From: Heliocybe sulcata
Lineage: Eukaryota > Basidiomycota > Agaricomycetes > Gloeophyllales > Gloeophyllaceae
Direction: 5' to 3'
Assembly (NCBI GenBank): GCA_004369045.1
Contig: ML213534.1
Coordinates: forward strand, 166,157-230,156
Length of the DNA stretch: 64,000 nucleotides
The notes beneath the pieces were generated by a model. The model had not been told where the DNA came from. It did no database searches and saw nothing but the letters and a program-made list of their open reading frames with translations. This document shows positions 12,778-22,731 of the stretch, piece after piece. The stretch's first letter is position 1, and the number at the start of each line of letters is the position of its first letter. The translations under genes and the position numbers were made by a program.

Positions 12778-15361
12778 CTAGGCCGCGGGTATCGAGTCCC
12801 TCTCGGCCGTGGATGTCTAGGGTATTCTGGCAATAGAGTTTGGCATGCTTGCCCTGCATCGTGGAGTCCTCGGCGGATTTGGAAGAAAGAATATCAAATA
12901 GCGACCGTCAAGACTTTCAAAGGTAGGGTTAGGGCTCAACTGCGGGGCTGCTGCTCGGCAGGACAACCTATGCCAGCCTTCTGCCAACAGGGCAGGAGAC
13001 GGCCACCTACTTGAGAGGAGGTCCGTACTCCCTGAATGTCCGGAGCTATGTTAACGGCCGGTGCTGATATGGGACTTGTTGTGGCAAACGCCTAGCCTGT
13101 CGCCCATCATGACGTGCACTGTGATGGTGATGGTATCTGGCGGCGTCTAACTGGAAAGCGGCTGATGCAGATGTGCCGTTGTGCCTGTGCCAGCTGCCAT
13201 TTAGTCCTTTAGTGGGGAGCTCGGCCCTGACAGCGGGGAACACACGCCGCCACCCGCCTCAATGGGCGGTCACTGTGCAAGGCGGTAAATCGATGCCGTC
13301 ACTGCGTCGGCTTTGCGAGACTGGTGGCTCTGCAGTGGGCAACCCGTGTCAGCTATCCCCATCCTGCCCCTTGTGACGCAGAGTCTCCCACCTCCATTCA
13401 ATGCAAATCTAGCTGTTGATCGCCGCAGCACTAAAATTGAAATGCTAAAGGACATTTCCCTCACTGGATATTTTTGCGGGCATGGGAAGCTAAACGTTAA
13501 CTTTCCGGCTTCGGGTTGTGGGAGTGGCACTTGGAAGTCCAATCAATGACCATGCGAATACCGAGTCTTTCTGTAACAATAGAGCGCTTCACTCCAGCCA
13601 GCATCCTAGATAAACAGGAATAATAGATACTGTGCACTGGTGGTCCGAGTCAGCGCGTAACAAGAAGATGGTGGAACCTCGCCGTTGTGGGTGAGATCTG
13701 GAGAGGCCGTACGCGGGACAGGTCTCAGCGGCTAAGTAGCAGCTGAAAACTCAAGGTTGCCGCAAACCGGAGTCTCCTGGCTATTCTGCAGGGCAACAAC
13801 CTACGTGAATCATTGGGTCGTCCCATAATTCCACATGGATCAGAGACCTACGAAAGAGCACCACGTCGGCATGCACATGAGCCCTGCATAGCACTGGGGG
13901 GCCGCGGCCAATCCTATCGCACACTCTCCAAACTGATCACCCGCTTTGCCTCACTCCCGGATTGGGAGTAACTGCCTTTGCCGTCGCCGGTATGCCTCCT
14001 AAGCCTTTACCCGTGAGGGAGGCGACCGGACAGGCTGGGAATGGGATGTAACTCCAAAGGATGATCGTGTTTCGCTGAGAACGAGCATGCCAGCAGTCGG
14101 CCTTCGTGGCGTCCTCGAACCACCTTCATGATATCAACTGTCACTGGTTAATCCCAGGCACGGAAGCTTCAGGTAACGTTCTGTCAAGCCGCTCGTGGAA
14201 GGCTTGTATTAGATAGCATTGACAATTCTCTCCTGCCATAGCGAAACAATCATCCTAGGGGGCCAGCTGCAATTACGGAGCGCAATAAGGTGCTGGATGC
14301 AGTACGCCAGAGAATGAATGGTGCGATGTGATACATTCACTGCCCCAAAGACTTGAAAGAATTGGACAGGTCGCGGCGTTTTATCAGTTGAGCAGAGGTC
14401 GAAGGATGAGACTCATGGGAGGCTCTAGGTCGCACTACGCTGAGGACAGCTTTCAGCAGCTAAATGCCCCTTCCTACCGATGATATCAGTGATGTCCAGC
14501 GCCAATAGACAGAAATGCCACTTCCCATATTTTAGTTTGCCCGGTACCCGATATTATACAACTTCGTTTTGATTCCACCAAATTGCCAGGGTACATCGGC
14601 TGATGCTCCATATTCGTGCTTGGTACCCATCTTCAGAGGCTCTATGGCGCGACCCGGTCGTAACAAGGCAAGGTAGGGCAGCGCCATTGAGAATCATCAC
14701 CGTTACAGATGGCATTTGATATAGTAAGTAATATCTAAAGACCTTTGATAACGGCGATCACGTAGGACGCAACCTTGATTTGCACAGTTTTGGTCTGTTG
14801 CGTCGTACCGACCTAGGGAGCGTACTGGTTAGCGACAGCTTGGTAGGTATCGTGAGGTCATACGCTAGACGTCTACATTGAGCTCTTTGATATCGCCTTT
14901 GTGAGCGTCAATGACCCAAGATAATAGGAATCATACCATTGAATACCTCCGTGGATACAACATGGCTTGAAACTGAAAGCAGCACCGCAACTGTCCCGGA
15001 AGAAAACGTTCTCTTCCTTGTTGAGACTTGTGCAATCGAGCGCAAGCCTAAGTTGCGGTGATATCTTGGAGAGGCGGATGAAAGAGGGGCCTGAATCAAA
15101 ACAGGCATTAATCAAGAACGGTGCCCACTCCAGCAGCGTCTCTGAGAAATGGGAAATCAGTGACAGTACCATAGGCGGATGACAGTCAACACTCAATAAT
15201 TTGCATCAGGATAGCCGCTGACATAGCTCGGGGGTTAGAGAACTATCACACCCGAGTTACCGTGCATCGCCGTATCCGCCTACGAGGTATATAAGCCAGG
15301 CAACCAAAGACTGTCGCCATAATTTAACTCTCCCCTAGAAACCTGCAAATCAAGCTAAGCA
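12778..15361. other. Long gene-poor intergenic region
   Basis: 2.6 kb with no recognisable gene. The longest frames (minus 14873-15196, 107 codons; minus 13270-13542) show no domain, splice pattern or biased composition. A short inverted repeat, ACTCCC/GGGAGT, lies near 13950. No tandem repeats, LTR ends or transposase motifs could be made out by eye. The last 75 bp form the promoter of the precursor gene at 15362. Confidence 0.5.
15288..15295 (+). promoter_or_regulatory. TATA box of precursor gene 1
   Basis: TATATAAG, 67-74 bp upstream of the ATG at 15362. A strong core promoter, typical of highly or conditionally expressed small secreted protein genes. Confidence 0.55.
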
Positions 15362-16020
15362 ATGCAGAAGCTCATCTCTCTCGTCCTCTTGAGCGGCTTA
15401 GTCACAGTCCTAGCTGCTGCCGCTCCTCTGGCCAGTGGTACGCATGTTCGGGCCAGACATCCTTCCACCCGTTGCTAAAAATCGTCCCATGTAGCCACGA
15501 CTAGCTCTGTCGAGTCTGGTGAGTGCCTCAACAAATCTCCTTTACGCCGCGAGAGATTGAGATCGCCTTCGTCTCCAGACTCAGCGGCATGGTGGGGTAA
15601 AAGACAAACCAACACTTCATCGGTCGCAGAGACTTCTACCACCCTGGGTATGCTACGTCTTCACGGCCGACCTTCTGAGCCAAGTTATTGACATAACGTA
15701 GATCCTGAGTGGTGGGGCAAAAGGGACACCACCGTGTCAACCCAGCTCGCGGTCACGACAGTCACCCCAGGTAGGTAACGTGCAGATTGTCCGCATAGCT
15801 TATATTGAACATTTGGCAAAGACCCAGAATGGTGGGGGAAAAGGGCCGAAGCCACTATAGCTCCCACCTCGTCCCCCGCGAGCGTTACCTCCTCGGTCAC
15901 TGTCGGTAAGTAATAGTTCATCATTAAACGGGAGAGTACTGACAAGACATGAATACTGCTACAGGAAATCCCAGGTGGGGCAAGAGAATCACAAGCTCCC
16001 CGCTGCCGGACCCCTACTAA
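15362..16020 (+). CDS. Secreted multi-peptide precursor with WWGKR repeats (Kex2-processed type)
   Basis: No known named family. Six exons: 15362-15437, 15495-15518, 15579-15647, 15702-15770, 15822-15905, 15965-16020; 125 residues. All five introns are phase 1, so each inner exon is a symmetric module. Residues 1-21 (MQKLISLVLLSGLVTVLAAAA) are a signal peptide. Four exons then each open with a copy of the repeat: SDSAAWWGKR, LDPEWWGKR, PDPEWWGKR and GNPRWGKR, separated by Ser/Thr/Val-rich spacers of about 11-17 residues. The last segment ends in PLPDPY and stop. Lys-Arg after each Trp-Gly is a classic Kex2 cleavage site; cutting would release four peptides ending in Trp-Gly and one ending in DPY. 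The design fits the Kex2-processed repeat protein class of fungi. Function is unknown; a hormone-like signal or a RiPP precursor are both possible. It lies in a gene-poor island, 4.1 kb from a related gene. Confidence 0.8.
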
Positions 16021-16221
16021 AAATCAACGACGTCGACAGACAGGACTAGCATGGGATACGAACATACTAGAGGCTCTAGTGATTTGACTGCTACAGGATT
16101 CACTGCAGTGGACCAGATATGGTACCGTATAGAAAACAGGTGTTGAATGTTGAAGGACAATAGAATGAGGAGTTCGTCAATTCCATGCTACAGAAAGGGG
16201 ACTGAGGAACGAACATACGGA

Positions 16222-17844
16222 CTATTCATTGCTAACTACAACTTCGGTTCCAGGAGATGACCAACTCAGATACTCGGCGACTTGAGCGATGACGTCGCCG
16301 CCGTACATGATCCGCTCCTTCGTGCATGCTGCAAATTCCAGTCGTTGGAGATTTCTCAGGGACGGCCACGCCTTGAGGAACTTCATCAAGCTTGAACTGA
16401 CAACGCAGCTCCTGAACCTAATCTCCCTCAGCTCCGGAAAAACCGGAGAGTCCCTGCTGCGACAATGACGGGCAAAGATGTCCCAGAGTTTTCGGAAGGA
16501 GTCTGACATGGAGCGCAGAGTCAGAATCTGCAATGCGGAGAGATGTCTCAAGCACTTGATCAGAGCGTCCATGTCCTCTGATTCTAGCCGCATACCAAAT
16601 CCACCGAGCTCGCCCCATAACTCCAGTCTGCGCAGAGCTGACATCGCATAAGCCCGAAGGATGGAGTCGGCAATAGTGGTGGGGAATGAATTACTGGAAA
16701 ACGGAGCAGAGAGGGCGAAAGTGACAGGTTGCCCATGGATTGTATGCCCTTCCAAGTAAAATAACCTAGCCTCCGTCCCCGTGACACTGGGATCGGATTG
16801 GACGCGAAGTATGGCTTCTTCCAAACATCCAACGGGAGGTAGTTGAGAAGGGAGATCTCTCAGGGCACCGGAGAAGTTTCGAAAGTCCCAGGCTCCGATC
16901 CTCGCCGCGCACGTACAAGGTACTATAAGGCGATGCATGATGTAGATGAGGAGATGGTCCGGCAGATGCAAGATAATCCGCTGCAGTCGCAGCATGCGGA
17001 CAGGCGTTAGCTGTTCAGAAAGGTCCGACTGCGGGGCCTGCAACTCTTCTACCTCCAATCTCAGTTCTGCCATGTTGGGGCAGTCGCGCAAGACTTGTAT
17101 GATATTCACGCCAATATCATCCCTTGCGGCATGTCCATGTCCGCTTGTGAGAAAATGCAGCTTAGTTAGGTCTCTGTATAACCCGGGACGCATTGCAGGG
17201 GGATAGTCGACAAGGGTCATGGCATTGAGGACAGGAAGCTGGCCTCCAAAAAAAGCTGGTGAATCCGTATGTCCGGTACGCCACAATACATCGTAGCTGC
17301 TCCAGACAAGCTTCAAATCCTTCAAATGCGGCGCGGCAATCGAGATGAGCGTTATGAAGAATTCCGAATTCGCATTTGCTTTAGGACATATCACTTCTAG
17401 CCACCGTGCCCGTGGGATGACCGATGAACAGACGCGGTGTAAATAATGGGATTCATGTCGCTGGAGAGCCTGGCCACCGATCCGTACGTAGAGATGGCTG
17501 CTACCGGTGCGGGAGATAAGTTCTGATATGAGTTCAGGTCCCATCTTGTTGAAACAGATGTGATCCCATAAGGACGCATACAATAGACTGATCTGTCGCC
17601 AGAGGGAGCAAACCTGCGACAGAGACATTATCGATAGAGCCCAAGGATCACCGTCTTCTTTAACAGCCAGAAATATGTCGCAAAGCAGTTCCGTCGGCAG
17701 ACAAGTAACAGATAGTTGCTCATTGCAGGACGACCGAGACTGGTTGATTCCAACGTCCCGTGGAGAAGCGAAAATAATTGAGGACGTCCCAGCACTCGAA
17801 TTGATAGCGCATTCTGTAACTTCAGCAGCTGTAGGATTCAGCAT
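16222..17844 (-). CDS. F-box domain protein, intronless
   Basis: Single open frame of 540 residues, unusual here where nearly all genes have introns. An F-box is readable near residues 46-95: SVTCLPTELLCDIFLAVKED, then SLSQVCSLWRQISLLYASLW. The rest has the Leu-rich, weakly repetitive look of the degenerate leucine-rich repeats common in Agaricomycete F-box proteins (for example PNMAELRLEVEELQ, SALQILTLRSMSD, PSLRNLQRLEFAAC). By family knowledge it would bind Skp1 in an SCF ubiquitin ligase and present a substrate; the target is unknown. Such genes are greatly expanded and fast-evolving in mushrooms. The region just upstream of its start may derive from an old LTR, which could supply the promoter (inference). 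Confidence 0.85.
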   Translation of the reverse strand: MLNPTAAEVTECAINSSAGTSSIIFASPRDVGINQSRSSCNEQLSVTCLPTELLCDIFLAVKEDGDPWALSIMSLSQVCSLWRQISLLYASLWDHICFNKMGPELISELISRTGSSHLYVRIGGQALQRHESHYLHRVCSSVIPRARWLEVICPKANANSEFFITLISIAAPHLKDLKLVWSSYDVLWRTGHTDSPAFFGGQLPVLNAMTLVDYPPAMRPGLYRDLTKLHFLTSGHGHAARDDIGVNIIQVLRDCPNMAELRLEVEELQAPQSDLSEQLTPVRMLRLQRIILHLPDHLLIYIMHRLIVPCTCAARIGAWDFRNFSGALRDLPSQLPPVGCLEEAILRVQSDPSVTGTEARLFYLEGHTIHGQPVTFALSAPFSSNSFPTTIADSILRAYAMSALRRLELWGELGGFGMRLESEDMDALIKCLRHLSALQILTLRSMSDSFRKLWDIFARHCRSRDSPVFPELREIRFRSCVVSSSLMKFLKAWPSLRNLQRLEFAACTKERIMYGGDVIAQVAEYLSWSSPGTEVVVSNE

Positions 17845-18290
17845 GTATGGCGACGAGCTTTGGCTTCCTCGTAATCGAGCAGTATTATCAAGGCATCCAG
17901 AGCAGAGTGTTCAGGTTGTGCTCGGATAGTGCTCACCAGCAGCAGGAGAGAGAGTCGGGAAAGCCGTTGCTTGGATGTTCGGTGAAGCCGGCTTATTCCG
18001 TCCCCTCGCGGCCTATGAGAATCAATATTGAATATTGAAATGCTAACCCGTCGACCGCCCGTGGCTATTACAATTGCTTATTGCTGCTTAAGCTTGTCGA
18101 CCGAATCTTCTAGTACAATATTGACATGTTCTACGCGATTCCGAGAGATTTTTCACTCGGGAGCCATATCAGCTATAAGTGAGATATCGTGCTTCCTAGG
18201 CATGAAATTTTGCACGACTCTTCAAATTAGCTTCATCTCCGCTGAAGCTAAGTCAAGGGGTAATAGGCGCTCCGGTGTCACATCCTCCCA
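17845..18290 (-). repeat. Possible LTR remnant (Ty3/Gypsy type), fossil
   Basis: Read on the minus strand, a purine-rich run (GTGGGAGGA) at about 18284-18292 is followed directly by TGTGACACCGGAGCGCC and about 430 bp of non-coding sequence up to CATACA just before the F-box start. A polypurine tract followed by TG is the layout at the 3' LTR of Gypsy-family elements. No partner LTR, internal genes or target duplication were found, so this would be an old, incomplete fossil. Evidence is pattern-only and weak. Confidence 0.3.
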
Positions 18291-20131
18291 CTTCCGTCAT
18301 TCAATGGTGCCGCAACTAGTAAACTGAGTCCTGAGGCCGGAGGCCTGAGTATGGAGAACGGACCGCGCATATAACCAATGCGTGAAGCAGCTCGGCAAAG
18401 CCCGACAGACAGCGCAGAGACGGGACTGGGCGCGACTTGGAATATTCCATAGCATCTGATCTATATTCAGACACAGTACCGACGCATGCGTCCGGCGCAT
18501 TCCGCGGTAGCCAGGTGCATCGCCTCTGTACATTGGATCTGCCTGCCGTCACAAGCAACGTTAGCACCTATAAGAACTTCAGAGCATGTGGATAATGGCC
18601 GTCATTTAGAATAGGGACGAGTACTCAGCGAAGACATGCCCTCTAACTCAGAAGACTTGTGAATGTTCATGCAGACTGCTGTAAGTGGTATCTGCTCGGT
18701 CGGTGAGATAATCACGAACAAAGGCAGAGCCTACCCAGGAGCTTGGGTATGTCGGCGATATAGAAGACACCACACTAGCACCTTCAAGGGAACTCCATAG
18801 AACTAGCGGCGATGGAGGCGCACCGCAAGCTGAAACGTCTGTAATATGAATTACTGGGTCTGGATGACTTCTCACCTTGTGACACCCTACCACTGTCGTT
18901 CCGCAGACGGGTATTGTTAGAGTCTGACCCTAATATCAAGATGCTATGCAGTGGGCAGCAAGCATAATTATAGAGCGCGGAAAGACAGATGAGATGCATT
19001 CACAGGGTCGGAAACGCCACCGTGTATATGGAAATGACCTAAATCGCATGAGTACAGCTAGGCGATGGGCGTCGACGGCAAAGGCTGCAATGCCACTACA
19101 GTGACGCTTCACTGCTGGGATGGCTTCCGCTTGACAGCCAGCGCTTGGACTGGGCCGAATATCCCTCGAGCTCGTACAGGATTTCCGATGTATTCCACGT
19201 CACTCGGTACCGTCCTAAATGAGTCAGGACGTACACGACCTCGTCAACGGGCCCTATAGGATGGATCAGTGGCATATATCACCTACCCAGCCACCAAATG
19301 GCGCATCTCTGATCCGCTGATCCGTCGCGGTACCGGCATGTCAACGATCTAAAGCATGATGGCTGTTAGTGCATAGAAAATAGAGTACGGGTCAGCCCGT
19401 GTAACGCAGCAGATTCAAATCTTGCGCGCTCACCTGTGGCAGAGCTGGTTCCGGGTCCGGATTCATTATGCACTGTTTATCTGCCTAGCGGAGCTATGCT
19501 TCGTGAAACTCCCGACGGAGGCCGATTCGAGACTGACTACGGCGAGACCATTCCGGAGGCAAATGTCTCGAGTATGTGACTTAAGAGACTGGTTCGACCC
19601 ACCTCATCCCTGCGGATGATTTTGAGCACCTTACTACAGATCAGATGAGGTAGACGACCCGAATAAGAGATATGCTACGAACATGATTCCTGAGCCATTC
19701 CGGCAGCCTGGGTTTAAGGGAGATATCCCCGCGAAAGCGGAGCGTAGATGACAGGCTCTGCCACCAACGACCTGCGAATTAGCGGCCTGCGGCCTAGATC
19801 AGATCTGTTAAGCTGAGCGCCTGCCGCTGGCTTGAGTGGCTGAAGCAACATCACCCGGACACACGGTTGTCAAACACCACAACCTGATAGCACAGTGCCG
19901 GATGATACAGTGCACTTGTCCAGGACCTGGAGTAGATGCATCTGCGCCACGATGACTCGTACGTGTGCTAGTGCATCGCTCTTGAAGGCTCTGGGATATA
20001 TAAAGAGGTCAGATATCGGTGTAGCCGTCCAGTCAACAACTTTCAATACCTCTTCTCGCTGAAGACCACCCCTTACCTTCAACCACTAGTTCTCTCTCAC
20101 TTTAGAATTAATTACCTCAACTCTCACCATA
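18291..20131. other. Gene-poor intergenic region
   Basis: 1.8 kb between the F-box gene side and precursor gene 2. Open frames here are short (none above 85 codons) and show no domain. Only the TATA box at 19997-20004 could be assigned. Confidence 0.5.
19997..20004 (+). promoter_or_regulatory. TATA box of precursor gene 2
   Basis: TATATAAA, about 130 bp upstream of the ATG at 20132. The leader between them is CT-rich, as is common before well-expressed fungal genes. Confidence 0.55.
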
Positions 20132-20776
20132 ATGCGCCACTTCTTCTCCCTCGTAATCATCTTCGCCCTCTTCGCCTTCGCGAAATTTCATGCCACCGCT
20201 GCGCCTGTGGAAGTAAGAGGTAAGTCTAAACGACTACTACGCCGCAGGACGCCAGCTCTGACAAGTTCCGCGATAGCTCCTCTCAGCGATGGGCCCGATC
20301 CGGAATGGTGGGGACGCCTCCAAGACATAGACAAGCTCGGTAAGGGGAAGCCCATGCATGATACCGCAATACGTACTCACAGTGCTGTGAACTCATGTTC
20401 AGGTCCGCATGCAAAGGGACCGGCGGCCGCCACTACGACCTCGACCACTGCTTCGGCATTCACGCCTGGGGTGATAAGAGACCCCTACAAGCGCCACGAC
20501 GGCCATGAGGGACGCGCAGCTGATACCGGCGCGGCCTCAGTCACTATCGCCTCTGTCCCATCGGTGGTAATAAGGGATCCCTACAAGCGACACGACGGCC
20601 ATAAGGGACACGTAGCTGATACCTCGGCTTCATCCACTACCTTGGCGTCCGCGTCTGTGGTGATATACGAGCCCTACAAGCGCGACCCTCGCGTTACTCG
20701 TGAGTACCAACCAGTACACTGAATCCGGAATACCATACTGACCCGCCTTACAGCGCAACCCATGGAGCCCTACTAA
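20132..20776 (+). CDS. Secreted multi-peptide precursor with DPYKR repeats (Kex2-processed type)
   Basis: Related in design to the gene at 15362. Proposed exons 20132-20219, 20277-20339, 20403-20699, 20754-20776, all joined by phase-1 introns; 156 residues. Residues 1-24 (MRHFFSLVIIFALFAFAKFH plus ATAA) are a signal peptide. A single DPEWWGR, the hallmark of gene 1, occurs near residue 37, here without the Lys. Two near-identical repeats follow, VIRDPYKRHDGHEG and VIRDPYKRHDGHKG, then VIYEPYKRDP, with Ala/Ser/Thr spacers. After the last intron the protein ends QPMEPY and stop. Thus every repeat presents an acidic-Pro-Tyr end before Lys-Arg, and the terminal copy presents it at the natural C-terminus. 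The first two introns are 57 and 63 nt, in frame and stop-free, so an unspliced reading is also open. Function unknown. Confidence 0.72.
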
Positions 20777-21371
20777 AGCGTGAATACCAATCGAAACATT
20801 ATTTATGTTCAAGTCTCTTCAAACTTCATTCCTTACCTGTCGATCAGAGAACCATTGTATCAAACTTCCCGAGGGCATTCTCATGTTTGTCTGTAATGAG
20901 GCCTGCGTCGAGCAGCAGTCCTAAAGCTTATGGTGTCTATAATCATTTATCAGCACAGTCTTAGTCATTCTAGGAGACCTTACATTTTCTACCGCGATTC
21001 TCGCTAACTAAACCTTCGTTCTTCGTCTGTATAATTCAGGTTCAGTATTTGTAGTCAGTGTAGTAGTAGTACTTACCTATTATTTATCGCTCCGTGTTAT
21101 TGTGTTAGTAGCTGTGTATTCTCCTCAGCAGCGCTGAGCGTGTAATTTATAGTGTAGCTGGAAAACAGTGCGGGAAACCACGTACCTGGACATGGCCGCG
21201 TTTTGAGAGAACAGACCTTGTCAGTAGAGGAGCATCGTCCGCATGTGCTACTCACCAAGAGCACCGCCCTCTTGGTGAGTAGCACATGCGGACGATGGGA
21301 ATAGACCCGACGCAGAGTTCATAATACTTTGTCTTTCGCATTATAGTCGATTACTAACAACACCCATACCT
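20777..21371. other. Convergent intergenic region with hairpin
   Basis: About 600 bp between the 3' ends of precursor gene 2 (+) and the LOG-family gene (-). AT-rich in its first half. It contains the perfect inverted repeat listed separately; otherwise no gene was seen. Confidence 0.5.
21233..21297. repeat. Perfect 29-bp inverted repeat with 7-nt spacer
   Basis: Left arm 21233-21261 and right arm 21269-21297 are exact reverse complements over 29 bases (left arm begins CATCGTCCGCATGTGCTACT), with spacer CACCGCC. The match stops abruptly on the outside. RNA from either strand would fold into a very stable stem-loop. Its place between two convergent genes suits a bidirectional terminator or 3'-UTR structure; a small mobile-element footprint or an assembly artefact are alternatives. 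Confidence 0.9.
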
Positions 21372-22392
21372 CTATGCAATCTCTAGTGTGTCGCCTTTGT
21401 CGTCCACTGTTCGACTCCAATCGTACGTAGCCTCATCGTCTCTCTTCCAGTTGTCTAATACTTCTAATGCGGCCTTGCCCCAGTCGAAGGTGGCATGTTC
21501 CTCCGGACTAGCCGGACCGTCAACGAAGAGGATCAGTGATTCGTTTTTCTCCTGGATAAAGCCTTCCCGGACTCCATTCTTCACTAGGGTGCGTAGTGAA
21601 TCGTAATAGGACAGCACATTTAGACATATGACGGCTTGGTTGCAGACGCCATAAGTGTCTCGGAAGACGGATTTGAAGAAGTGACATACGTTTGTTGTGG
21701 ATGCCCAACTGCGTCCACGTTGTGACTTCCGCAATCTGAGGCCACAATGCTTTATCAGAATTGCTAGTGCATGCATCGGCACCATCTAGTCATACCTCCT
21801 CGAATGTACCGTAGCCGCCCGGTAGGGCAATAAAGGCCGCCGACCGTCTCGCCATCTCTACCTTCCGCTCATGCATTGAATTCACGATCACCTTCACAGG
21901 AAACAAGTTTAGCCTCTTTCGCGGAGCAGACAAGTCCAACACGGAGCTCACAGTATCAACCTGGGTGACAGCACAGGATCCCGCGTCCATCAGTTATTCC
22001 ATCTCGACAAAGCTGATACAACGCACCTTCTCTCTGCCCCTCTCGTTTAATATTATATGCACTGCCTGGTCTCTCGCCTCTCCCTTCCCAGTCTTTTCCC
22101 CTTCGCCTCCTGCCGCGACCATCGCCCATGGGACTACCCCGGTAACCTGTCCTCCGGCTTGTAGGACTGCACCAGACACGACGCCCATGATTCCCTTGGA
22201 GCCACCGCCATAGACCAGTGGCCGTTCTGCTGCAGCCAAAGCACGTCCTAAGGCTATTCCATCAATCAGTATTGATACCTGCGAAACATGGAATGAAGTA
22301 CAGATGGCGGCCTCCTGATATGCCTTCTGCGTCCCCAAAGACGACGCACAGTACACAGCTACCGCTCTCTTCTCGCTATCGGAGGGAGACAT
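21372..22392 (-). CDS. LOG-family protein (cytokinin riboside monophosphate phosphoribohydrolase-like)
   Basis: Rossmann-type enzyme of the LONELY GUY family, often mislabelled lysine decarboxylase; characterised members split ribose-5-phosphate from nucleoside monophosphates such as cytokinin ribotides. Six exons: 22392-22302, 22253-22027, 21960-21952, 21891-21796, 21735-21690, 21634-21372; 243 residues. The signature PGGYGTFEE and the upstream [20 protein letters not shown] are intact, as are VYCASSLG near the N-terminus and [18 protein letters not shown]. Exon 3 is only 9 nt (Val-Asp-Thr); it restores the family pattern [13 protein letters not shown]. The first intron (48 nt) is in frame and stop-free. 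Divergent from the PLC-like gene, with 339 bp between starts. The fungal substrate is unknown. Confidence 0.9.
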
Positions 22393-22731
22393 GGCGGACG
22401 TCGACGAGTATCCTCAGTACTAGAGAGATCGATATATGCCTCTCGCATCCTTATAATATCGCAGCACAAATCCGAGTCGCCGGAATGAGCTTGATGACAT
22501 CGATAAAGCCGCCGAGAGTCCTCGCCGCGTCGACCAATGACGAAGACATTGCGTACTACATTTGCGAAGCTTCGATGGATTTCATTGTGGTCACTGGTAA
22601 CCGGTAACTTAGCGCGGAAGTGAATTGGAAAGGCGGGAGGAGGATGCCGGCGGCGGCAATAGCTTTGACGCAGTGTGGCGCAATATTGGGACTTTCCTGC
22701 TTCCATCTACCAACCCGCCGACGACCGCGAC
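22393..22731. promoter_or_regulatory. Divergent promoter region, LOG gene and PLC-like gene
   Basis: 339 bp between two head-to-head start codons. No obvious TATA box or repeated operator-like motif; listed because both genes must be driven from it. Confidence 0.4.

Follow-up and report, generated by a model that had tools for sequence, protein, structure and literature searches.

A 64,000-nt stretch of contig ML213534.1 of Heliocybe sulcata (assembly GCA_004369045.1, positions 166,157 to 230,156; hereafter the window, on the contig denoted C32) contains two genes, gene 1 and gene 2, which together with a third gene located shortly before its first base probably constitute a small local family of secreted precursors that are processed by KEX2 into linear peptides. 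The precursors are new sequences of an already known type, the KEX2-processed repeat proteins (KEPs), and their exon layout is uncommon. KEPs are widespread among fungi, and their roles in mushrooms are largely unknown. The family described here suggests that a short C-terminal motif is the retained and likely active part of the peptide, the remainder being subject to drift, and it offers a case for how a product may change through the choice of the core that is repeated. It also names synthetic peptides worth testing.

The intron boundaries of genes 1 and 2 were fitted by hand on the sequence, and the predicted splicing yields frames that are open to the stop (Table 1). All eight introns are GT-AG introns of 51–63 nt and lie in phase 1, in agreement with a preliminary description of this DNA, which had assigned only phase-1 introns to both genes. 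Gene 1 carries, in order, the cores SAAWWGKR, DPEWWGKR, DPEWWGKR, and NPRWGKR, and ends with PDPY. Each core occupies an exon of its own, and exons 2–5 are symmetric phase-1 exons, so that exon gain, loss, or skipping leaves the frame intact; the core copy number could be changed in this manner without a frame shift. This arrangement of one core per symmetric exon is the most unusual part of the finding. No mention of it was found in the KEP literature represented by the main texts of PMC9769878, PMC7329392, and PMC6339444, in which the word exon is absent and intron appears once (in a method of PMC9769878), although this is not proof of its absence from print.

Gene 2 carries, in order, DPEWWGRL, RDPYKR, RDPYKR, and YEPYKR, and ends with MEPY. 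Since its DPEWWG is followed by Arg-Leu rather than KR, no dibasic kexin site is present at this position, and the motif would be retained in the propeptide. As proposed in the preliminary description, gene 1 has multiplied the WWGKR core (three copies and one WGKR) and gene 2 the DPYKR core (two copies and one EPYKR), and each also holds the motif of the other. The same description had given both genes a signal peptide; both have a hydrophobic N-terminal stretch, with best 12-residue Kyte–Doolittle means of 2.6 for gene 1 and 2.9 for gene 2, which is signal-peptide-like by sequence. The TATA boxes reported for both genes are present as TATATAA, and TATAWAR occurs six times on the forward strand across the whole window. 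The promoters of genes 1 and 2 have four 8-mers in common (two overlapping pairs), compared with a mean of 0.94 and a maximum of 7 in shuffled sequences, and share none (gene 1) and one (gene 2) with the promoter of the third gene.

Genes 1 and 2 are very probably paralogues. A common origin is indicated by the genome-unique DPEWWG, the [DE]PY end, the KR sites, and the uniform phase-1 introns. Across the 31.6-Mb genome, DNA fitting a degenerate pattern for DPEWWG occurs at three sites, of which gene 1 holds two and gene 2 one, versus 0.06 expected from base composition. The acidic-Pro-Tyr ends that had been described along with this motif are likewise confirmed in both gene models: among the 16,882 stops in the six frames of the contig, three are directly preceded by [DE]PY, and two of these three are the ends of genes 1 and 2. 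When aligned locally, the mature parts of the two proteins score 68, a value that none of 2000 shuffles reached.

The preliminary description had treated the two genes as a pair, which stands with respect to common origin and is incomplete in number. A genome scan for WWGKR-coding DNA located the third gene, at a site 1.65 kb before the window start and 17 kb upstream of gene 1, where it lies beside a TBP gene. The predicted precursor also begins with a hydrophobic stretch, and its three introns are all GT-AG, in phase 1, and 55–64 nt long. It contains a single core, VEPDWWGKRAE, with the only KR, and has the WWG motif without a PY core. The pattern [DE]P[DE]WWG-[KR]-R has three exact matches genome-wide, one in the third gene and two in gene 1, and the alignment score of 67 between the core region of the third gene and gene 1 was equaled by none of 2000 shuffles. 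The precursors are at least a trio and probably form a small local family.

Table 1. Positions of the precursor genes and of the gene between them (window coordinates unless preceded by a contig label).
Feature	Position	Strand	Description
Gene 1	15362-16020	+	6 exons; 125 aa; hand-fitted model, spliced frame open to stop
Gene 1 TATA box (TATATAA)	15288..15295	+	ATG 74 nt further on
Gene 1 exon 1	15362..15437	+	signal-peptide-like start
Gene 1 exon 2	15495..15518	+	24 nt, symmetric 1-1
Gene 1 exon 3	15579..15647	+	69 nt; single SAAWWGKR core, WWGKR at 15590-15604
Gene 1 exon 4	15702..15770	+	69 nt; single DPEWWGKR core, WWGKR at 15710-15724
Gene 1 exon 5	15822..15905	+	84 nt; single DPEWWGKR core, WWGKR at 15830-15844
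Gene 1 exon 6	15965..16020	+	NPRWGKR variant core and PDPY C-terminus
Gene 2	20132-20776	+	4 exons; 156 aa; hand-fitted model, spliced frame open to stop
Gene 2 TATA box (TATATAA)	19997..20004	+	ATG 135 nt further on
Gene 2 exon 1	20132..20219	+	signal-peptide-like start
Gene 2 exon 2	20277..20339	+	DPEWWG at 20297-20314, then R-L rather than KR
Gene 2 exon 3	20403..20699	+	RDPYKR, RDPYKR, YEPYKR; xPYKR at 20480, 20576, 20669
Gene 2 exon 4	20754..20776	+	MEPY C-terminus
Third WWGKR precursor gene	C32:164116-164557	+ (same strand as genes 1 and 2)	86 residues; hydrophobic start; three introns
F-box gene between the precursors	16222..17910	-	562-codon open frame; PF12937 E 3.3e-6

The WWGKR codons of three exons of gene 1 and of the third gene show 14 codon differences over six pairs, all of which are synonymous, a zero non-synonymous count that is partly by construction, as these rows were chosen for encoding WWGKR. 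In these gene 1 exons, the 14-codon stretch that follows KR shows one synonymous and 38 non-synonymous differences over three pairs. The cores are not recent identical copies of DNA; by these counts they have diverged silently, and the spacers drift freely.

Several observations weigh against the proposed family and its assignment. With the WWG motif masked, the alignment score of genes 1 and 2 is also attained by 93 of 2000 shuffles, so that similarity beyond the motif is marginal and the case for common descent is carried by the short motif and the architecture rather than by overall similarity. For the third gene and gene 1, the masked score is reached by 560 of 2000 shuffles, indicating no similarity beyond the motif, and the alignment of gene 2 with the third gene (score 41) is equaled by 23 of 2000. 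A tblastn search of the contig with gene 1 retrieved the third gene at an E value of 0.009, barely ahead of an unrelated Ser/Thr-rich stretch at 0.017; the third gene is singled out by its motif and not by BLAST. Its predicted model is also the least secure of the three, because it has a single KR, includes an exon of 9 nt, and depends on a choice between two neighboring donors (in exon 3, GTGAGT was taken over GTATGT four bases earlier, since only GTGAGT keeps the WWG frame). The repeats of gene 2 are less constrained than the cores of gene 1: repeats 1 and 2 differ by four synonymous and five non-synonymous changes over 21 codons, and repeat 3 differs from repeats 1 and 2 over the eight codons up to K by 0:3 and 1:2 (synonymous:non-synonymous). 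Duplication of introns is not convincing, as 3 of 28 intron pairs had at most 15 of 300 shuffles at their score (uncorrected), none of them within gene 1. Finally, no Pfam or NCBIfam family matched any of the three precursors at E values up to 1, and it is consequently the architecture that places them among the KEPs.

In the general KEP pathway, precursors undergo KEX2 cleavage and KEX1 trimming (PMC9769878). The genome contains one match to the P-domain of kexin (P_proprotein). The precursors would enter the secretory pathway, where kexin, a Golgi protease, would cut after each KR and KEX1 would trim the basic residues from the resulting peptides. The released linear peptides would each consist of a variable N-terminal part, Ser/Thr-rich in gene 1, and a fixed C-terminal motif, the latter acting as the recognition element and the former as a disposable spacer. 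Gene 1 and the third gene would provide -WWG ends, and -DPY/-EPY ends would be contributed by gene 2 and, at its free C-terminus, by gene 1. The predicted products of gene 1 are peptides of 20–26 residues ending in -WWG (or -RWG for the NPRWG unit) and ITSSPLPDPY, and those of gene 2, which repeats the PY core, are peptides ending in -VVIRDPY or -VVIYEPY. The predicted released peptides include QTNTSSVAETSTTLDPEWWG (with or without pyro-Glu), DTTVSTQLAVTTVTPDPEWWG, and the ITSSPLPDPY named above. By analogy, the peptides probably function toward the biotic environment, a role that the authors of the KEP work inferred from knockouts without a phenotype (PMC9769878). They would then be signal or interaction peptides directed outward.

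In silico cutting at KR gives five fragments for gene 1, four for gene 2, and two for the third gene, the C-terminal fragment being counted. The published KEP cut-off of at least four fragments after KR/RR cleavage (PMC6339444) thus includes genes 1 and 2 and leaves out the third gene, and gene 2 would become marginal at the later stage of that method, in which the C-terminal part is no longer considered (PMC6339444). The further minimum of three near-identical motifs between sites (PMC6339444) is reached by gene 1, with WWGKR three times and WGKR once, and by gene 2, with DPYKR twice and EPYKR once; the third gene has one motif.

KEP peptides with aromatic C-termini, namely SGVAADW, SGTGEASAADW, GPPAPSW, and a peptide of the form pyro-Q...NIEPY, have been detected in mushrooms by mass spectrometry (PMC9769878). 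The C-terminal-Trp mushroom KEPs (2599, 1091723, and 1439342 ending in -AADW, 447393 in -PSW, and 490115 in -PSW as seen in Pichia) resemble the present precursors in their aromatic end and KEX2 release (PMC9769878), whereas the corresponding end here is -WWG, with Gly after the Trp pair. The STE13 dipeptide repeats of the Pleurotus precursors and of 490115 (PMC9769878) do not occur in these genes. Gene 2 can also be compared with KEP 497993 of Coprinopsis cinerea, a secreted precursor whose peptides are released by KEX2: the gene 2 units end in -DPY/-EPY and the C. cinerea peptide in NIEPY, the latter being detected mainly in premature fruiting-body caps (PMC9769878). In contrast, the 20-residue peptide of KEP 497993 has no match in the H. 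sulcata genome by a search that lacked a positive control.

Animal neuropeptide precursors carry GKR amidation sites, and the Gly-Lys-Arg that follows the aromatic core in the present precursors looks like such an amidation signal. The amidating enzyme PAM is reported to be missing throughout fungi (PMC6529398), and a free -WWG end is therefore expected. A search of the genome with PF03712, a family of the amidating enzyme, gave no match, and its positive control was also silent.

The preliminary description had suggested dikaritin-like precursors. Dikaritin precursors (ustiloxin, phomopsin, and asperipin-2a) have a signal peptide, to which the hydrophobic start of the present genes would correspond, and share with these genes KR sites and repeated cores that can contain Tyr (PMC9769878, PMC7329392). 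The products would then be ribosomally synthesized and post-translationally modified peptides, the Tyr or Trp residues of the released cores being cross-linked by a UstYa oxidase whose gene lies elsewhere in the genome. The cores do contain Tyr or Trp, and UstYa gives 18 exon matches genome-wide (E up to 0.001), none of which lies on C32. This number is not unusual, as Pleurotus ostreatus carries 16 genes of this kind (PMC8893723). Of 1680 basidiomycete KEPs, only 103 have a DUF3328 gene nearby (PMC7329392), so that modification in trans is compatible with the lack of a linked UstYa gene. No peptide-tailoring domain was detected around the precursors by a Pfam scan of 49 of the 77 open reading frames (ORFs; at least 90 codons) listed for 5–32 kb. 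At the loci of eight of the 18 UstYa matches (about 3.3 kb each), the frames with at least three dibasic pairs were inspected by eye and contained no repeated core, an inspection that a short-exon precursor would escape. Modification of this type is improbable, and the plain secreted peptide that had been offered as the alternative in case no tailoring enzymes were present is favored. Elsewhere in the genome, four UstYa exon matches lie within about 10 kb (C2:322072-332161), possibly marking a dikaritin-type cluster.

In a second alternative, the precursors resemble Rep1 and contribute to the cell wall or surface coat, with functional long spacers that are merely separated by KR. Rep1 of Ustilago maydis yields 37-residue peptides (PMC6339444) that form amyloid-like fibrils (PMC9769878), and Ser and Thr account for a fraction of 0.30 of the gene 1 protein, whose spacers are rich in both, and for a lower fraction of 0.16 in gene 2. 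The gene 1 spacers, however, differ almost completely at the codon level described above, while the WWGKR ends are kept, albeit in rows selected for WWGKR; a structural role of the spacers is quite improbable. It is very doubtful that the three genes are decaying or chance gene-like sequences without a product: the single core of the third gene and the weak codon-usage signal across the region would be compatible with this, but all 11 modeled introns of the three genes are GT-AG and in phase 1, the frames are open, and the motifs are genome-unique. Least plausible is a role as mating peptides of the alpha-pheromone type, matured by KEX2 and STE13, since, although the precursor layout is alike and basidiomycete KEPs with alpha-type signatures exist (PMC6339444), no XA/XP dipeptide runs follow KR (among the eight fragment starts that come after KR in the three precursors, DPRVT alone begins with XA/XP) and STE2 has no match in the genome (with a silent positive control), compared with 14 exon matches for STE3 by the same method. 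This receptor pattern is in keeping with a basidiomycete. The STE3 matches fall into about five locations on C11 and C16, none being on C32, and a run of them at C11:798177-836776 is likely a pheromone-receptor mating locus.

Returning to the reading as KEX2-processed precursors of linear peptides, both motifs are present in gene 1 as well as in gene 2, and each gene has multiplied a different one, which fits core switching in either direction. The preliminary description had envisaged a common ancestor carrying both cores and subsequent switching. The common origin is supported. As the third gene has WWG only, the WWG core may represent the ancestral state and the amplification of DPY a later one. 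Either the ancestor held both motifs, or WWG came first and the PY end was gained before the separation of genes 1 and 2. A more elaborate and rather unlikely possibility is that the three genes form a secreted system of two ligands, -WWG and -DPY, derived from one ancestral both-motif precursor, in which cassette exons tune dose and mix and the silenced WWG of gene 2 persists as propeptide. If so, exon skipping or gain could alter how much of each kind of peptide is made and in what proportion.

Searches for further members of the family covered the entire genome. The core pattern with up to three mismatches occurs at 74 places, compared with 82 for the reversed-pattern control, and thus shows no excess. 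Five of the 74 sites were considered and rejected, since their translations are unlike the precursors: DPQWLGKR (C18), DPEWHGKR (C11), EPEWWGS (C9), DPDWPAKR (C22), and DPAWWGKS (C25). The DNA of the C18 and C11 sites has no AG directly before the core, that of C11 having one three bases earlier. The WWGKR pattern has ten sites, comprising three in gene 1, one in the third gene, and six others that were rejected as paralogues, three of them encoding WWGKR in unlike contexts and three encoding WWGKS. The DPYKR pattern has 19 sites, three of which are in gene 2, versus 34 for its control, giving no sign of the family elsewhere, and the gene 2 repeat region used as a protein query matched only itself at E values up to 10. 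WWGKR, DPEWWG, RDPYKR, and EPDWW are absent from the main texts of the literature searched, supplements being outside this search; DPEWW appears only in unrelated work on signaling condensates.

Genes 1 and 2 lie with an F-box gene between them in the 12.5–21.3 kb stretch of the window, which contains these three genes. The coding-like fraction of this stretch is 0.10 versus a contig median of 0.38, ranking 27th among 470 overlapping 8.8-kb windows with a coding-potential threshold set from simulated sequence. With a stricter script, which called 13% of the contig coding, the fraction is 0.015 versus a median of 0.073 and the rank is 137 of 470. The gene-poor island of the preliminary description is borne out by these values, as is its placement of an F-box gene flanked by the precursors (Table 1). 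This F-box gene has seven distant matches elsewhere in the genome, with identities of 23–37%. The scanned ORFs gave matches over the Pfam cut-offs for tRNA synthetase 1b, CDC50, Rad1, a sugar transporter, HOOK, and dynamin, and below the cut-offs for SLOG/lysine decarboxylase and PI-PLC-X. The SLOG/lysine decarboxylase-like frames are next to gene 2, at 21372-22413 on the minus strand. An inverted repeat downstream of gene 2 (21233-21297) has 29-bp arms and a 7-nt loop, and a 30-base arm of it is found once on the contig. Its minimum-energy structure contains 28 pairs at -62.6 kcal/mol, with a z score of -10.1.

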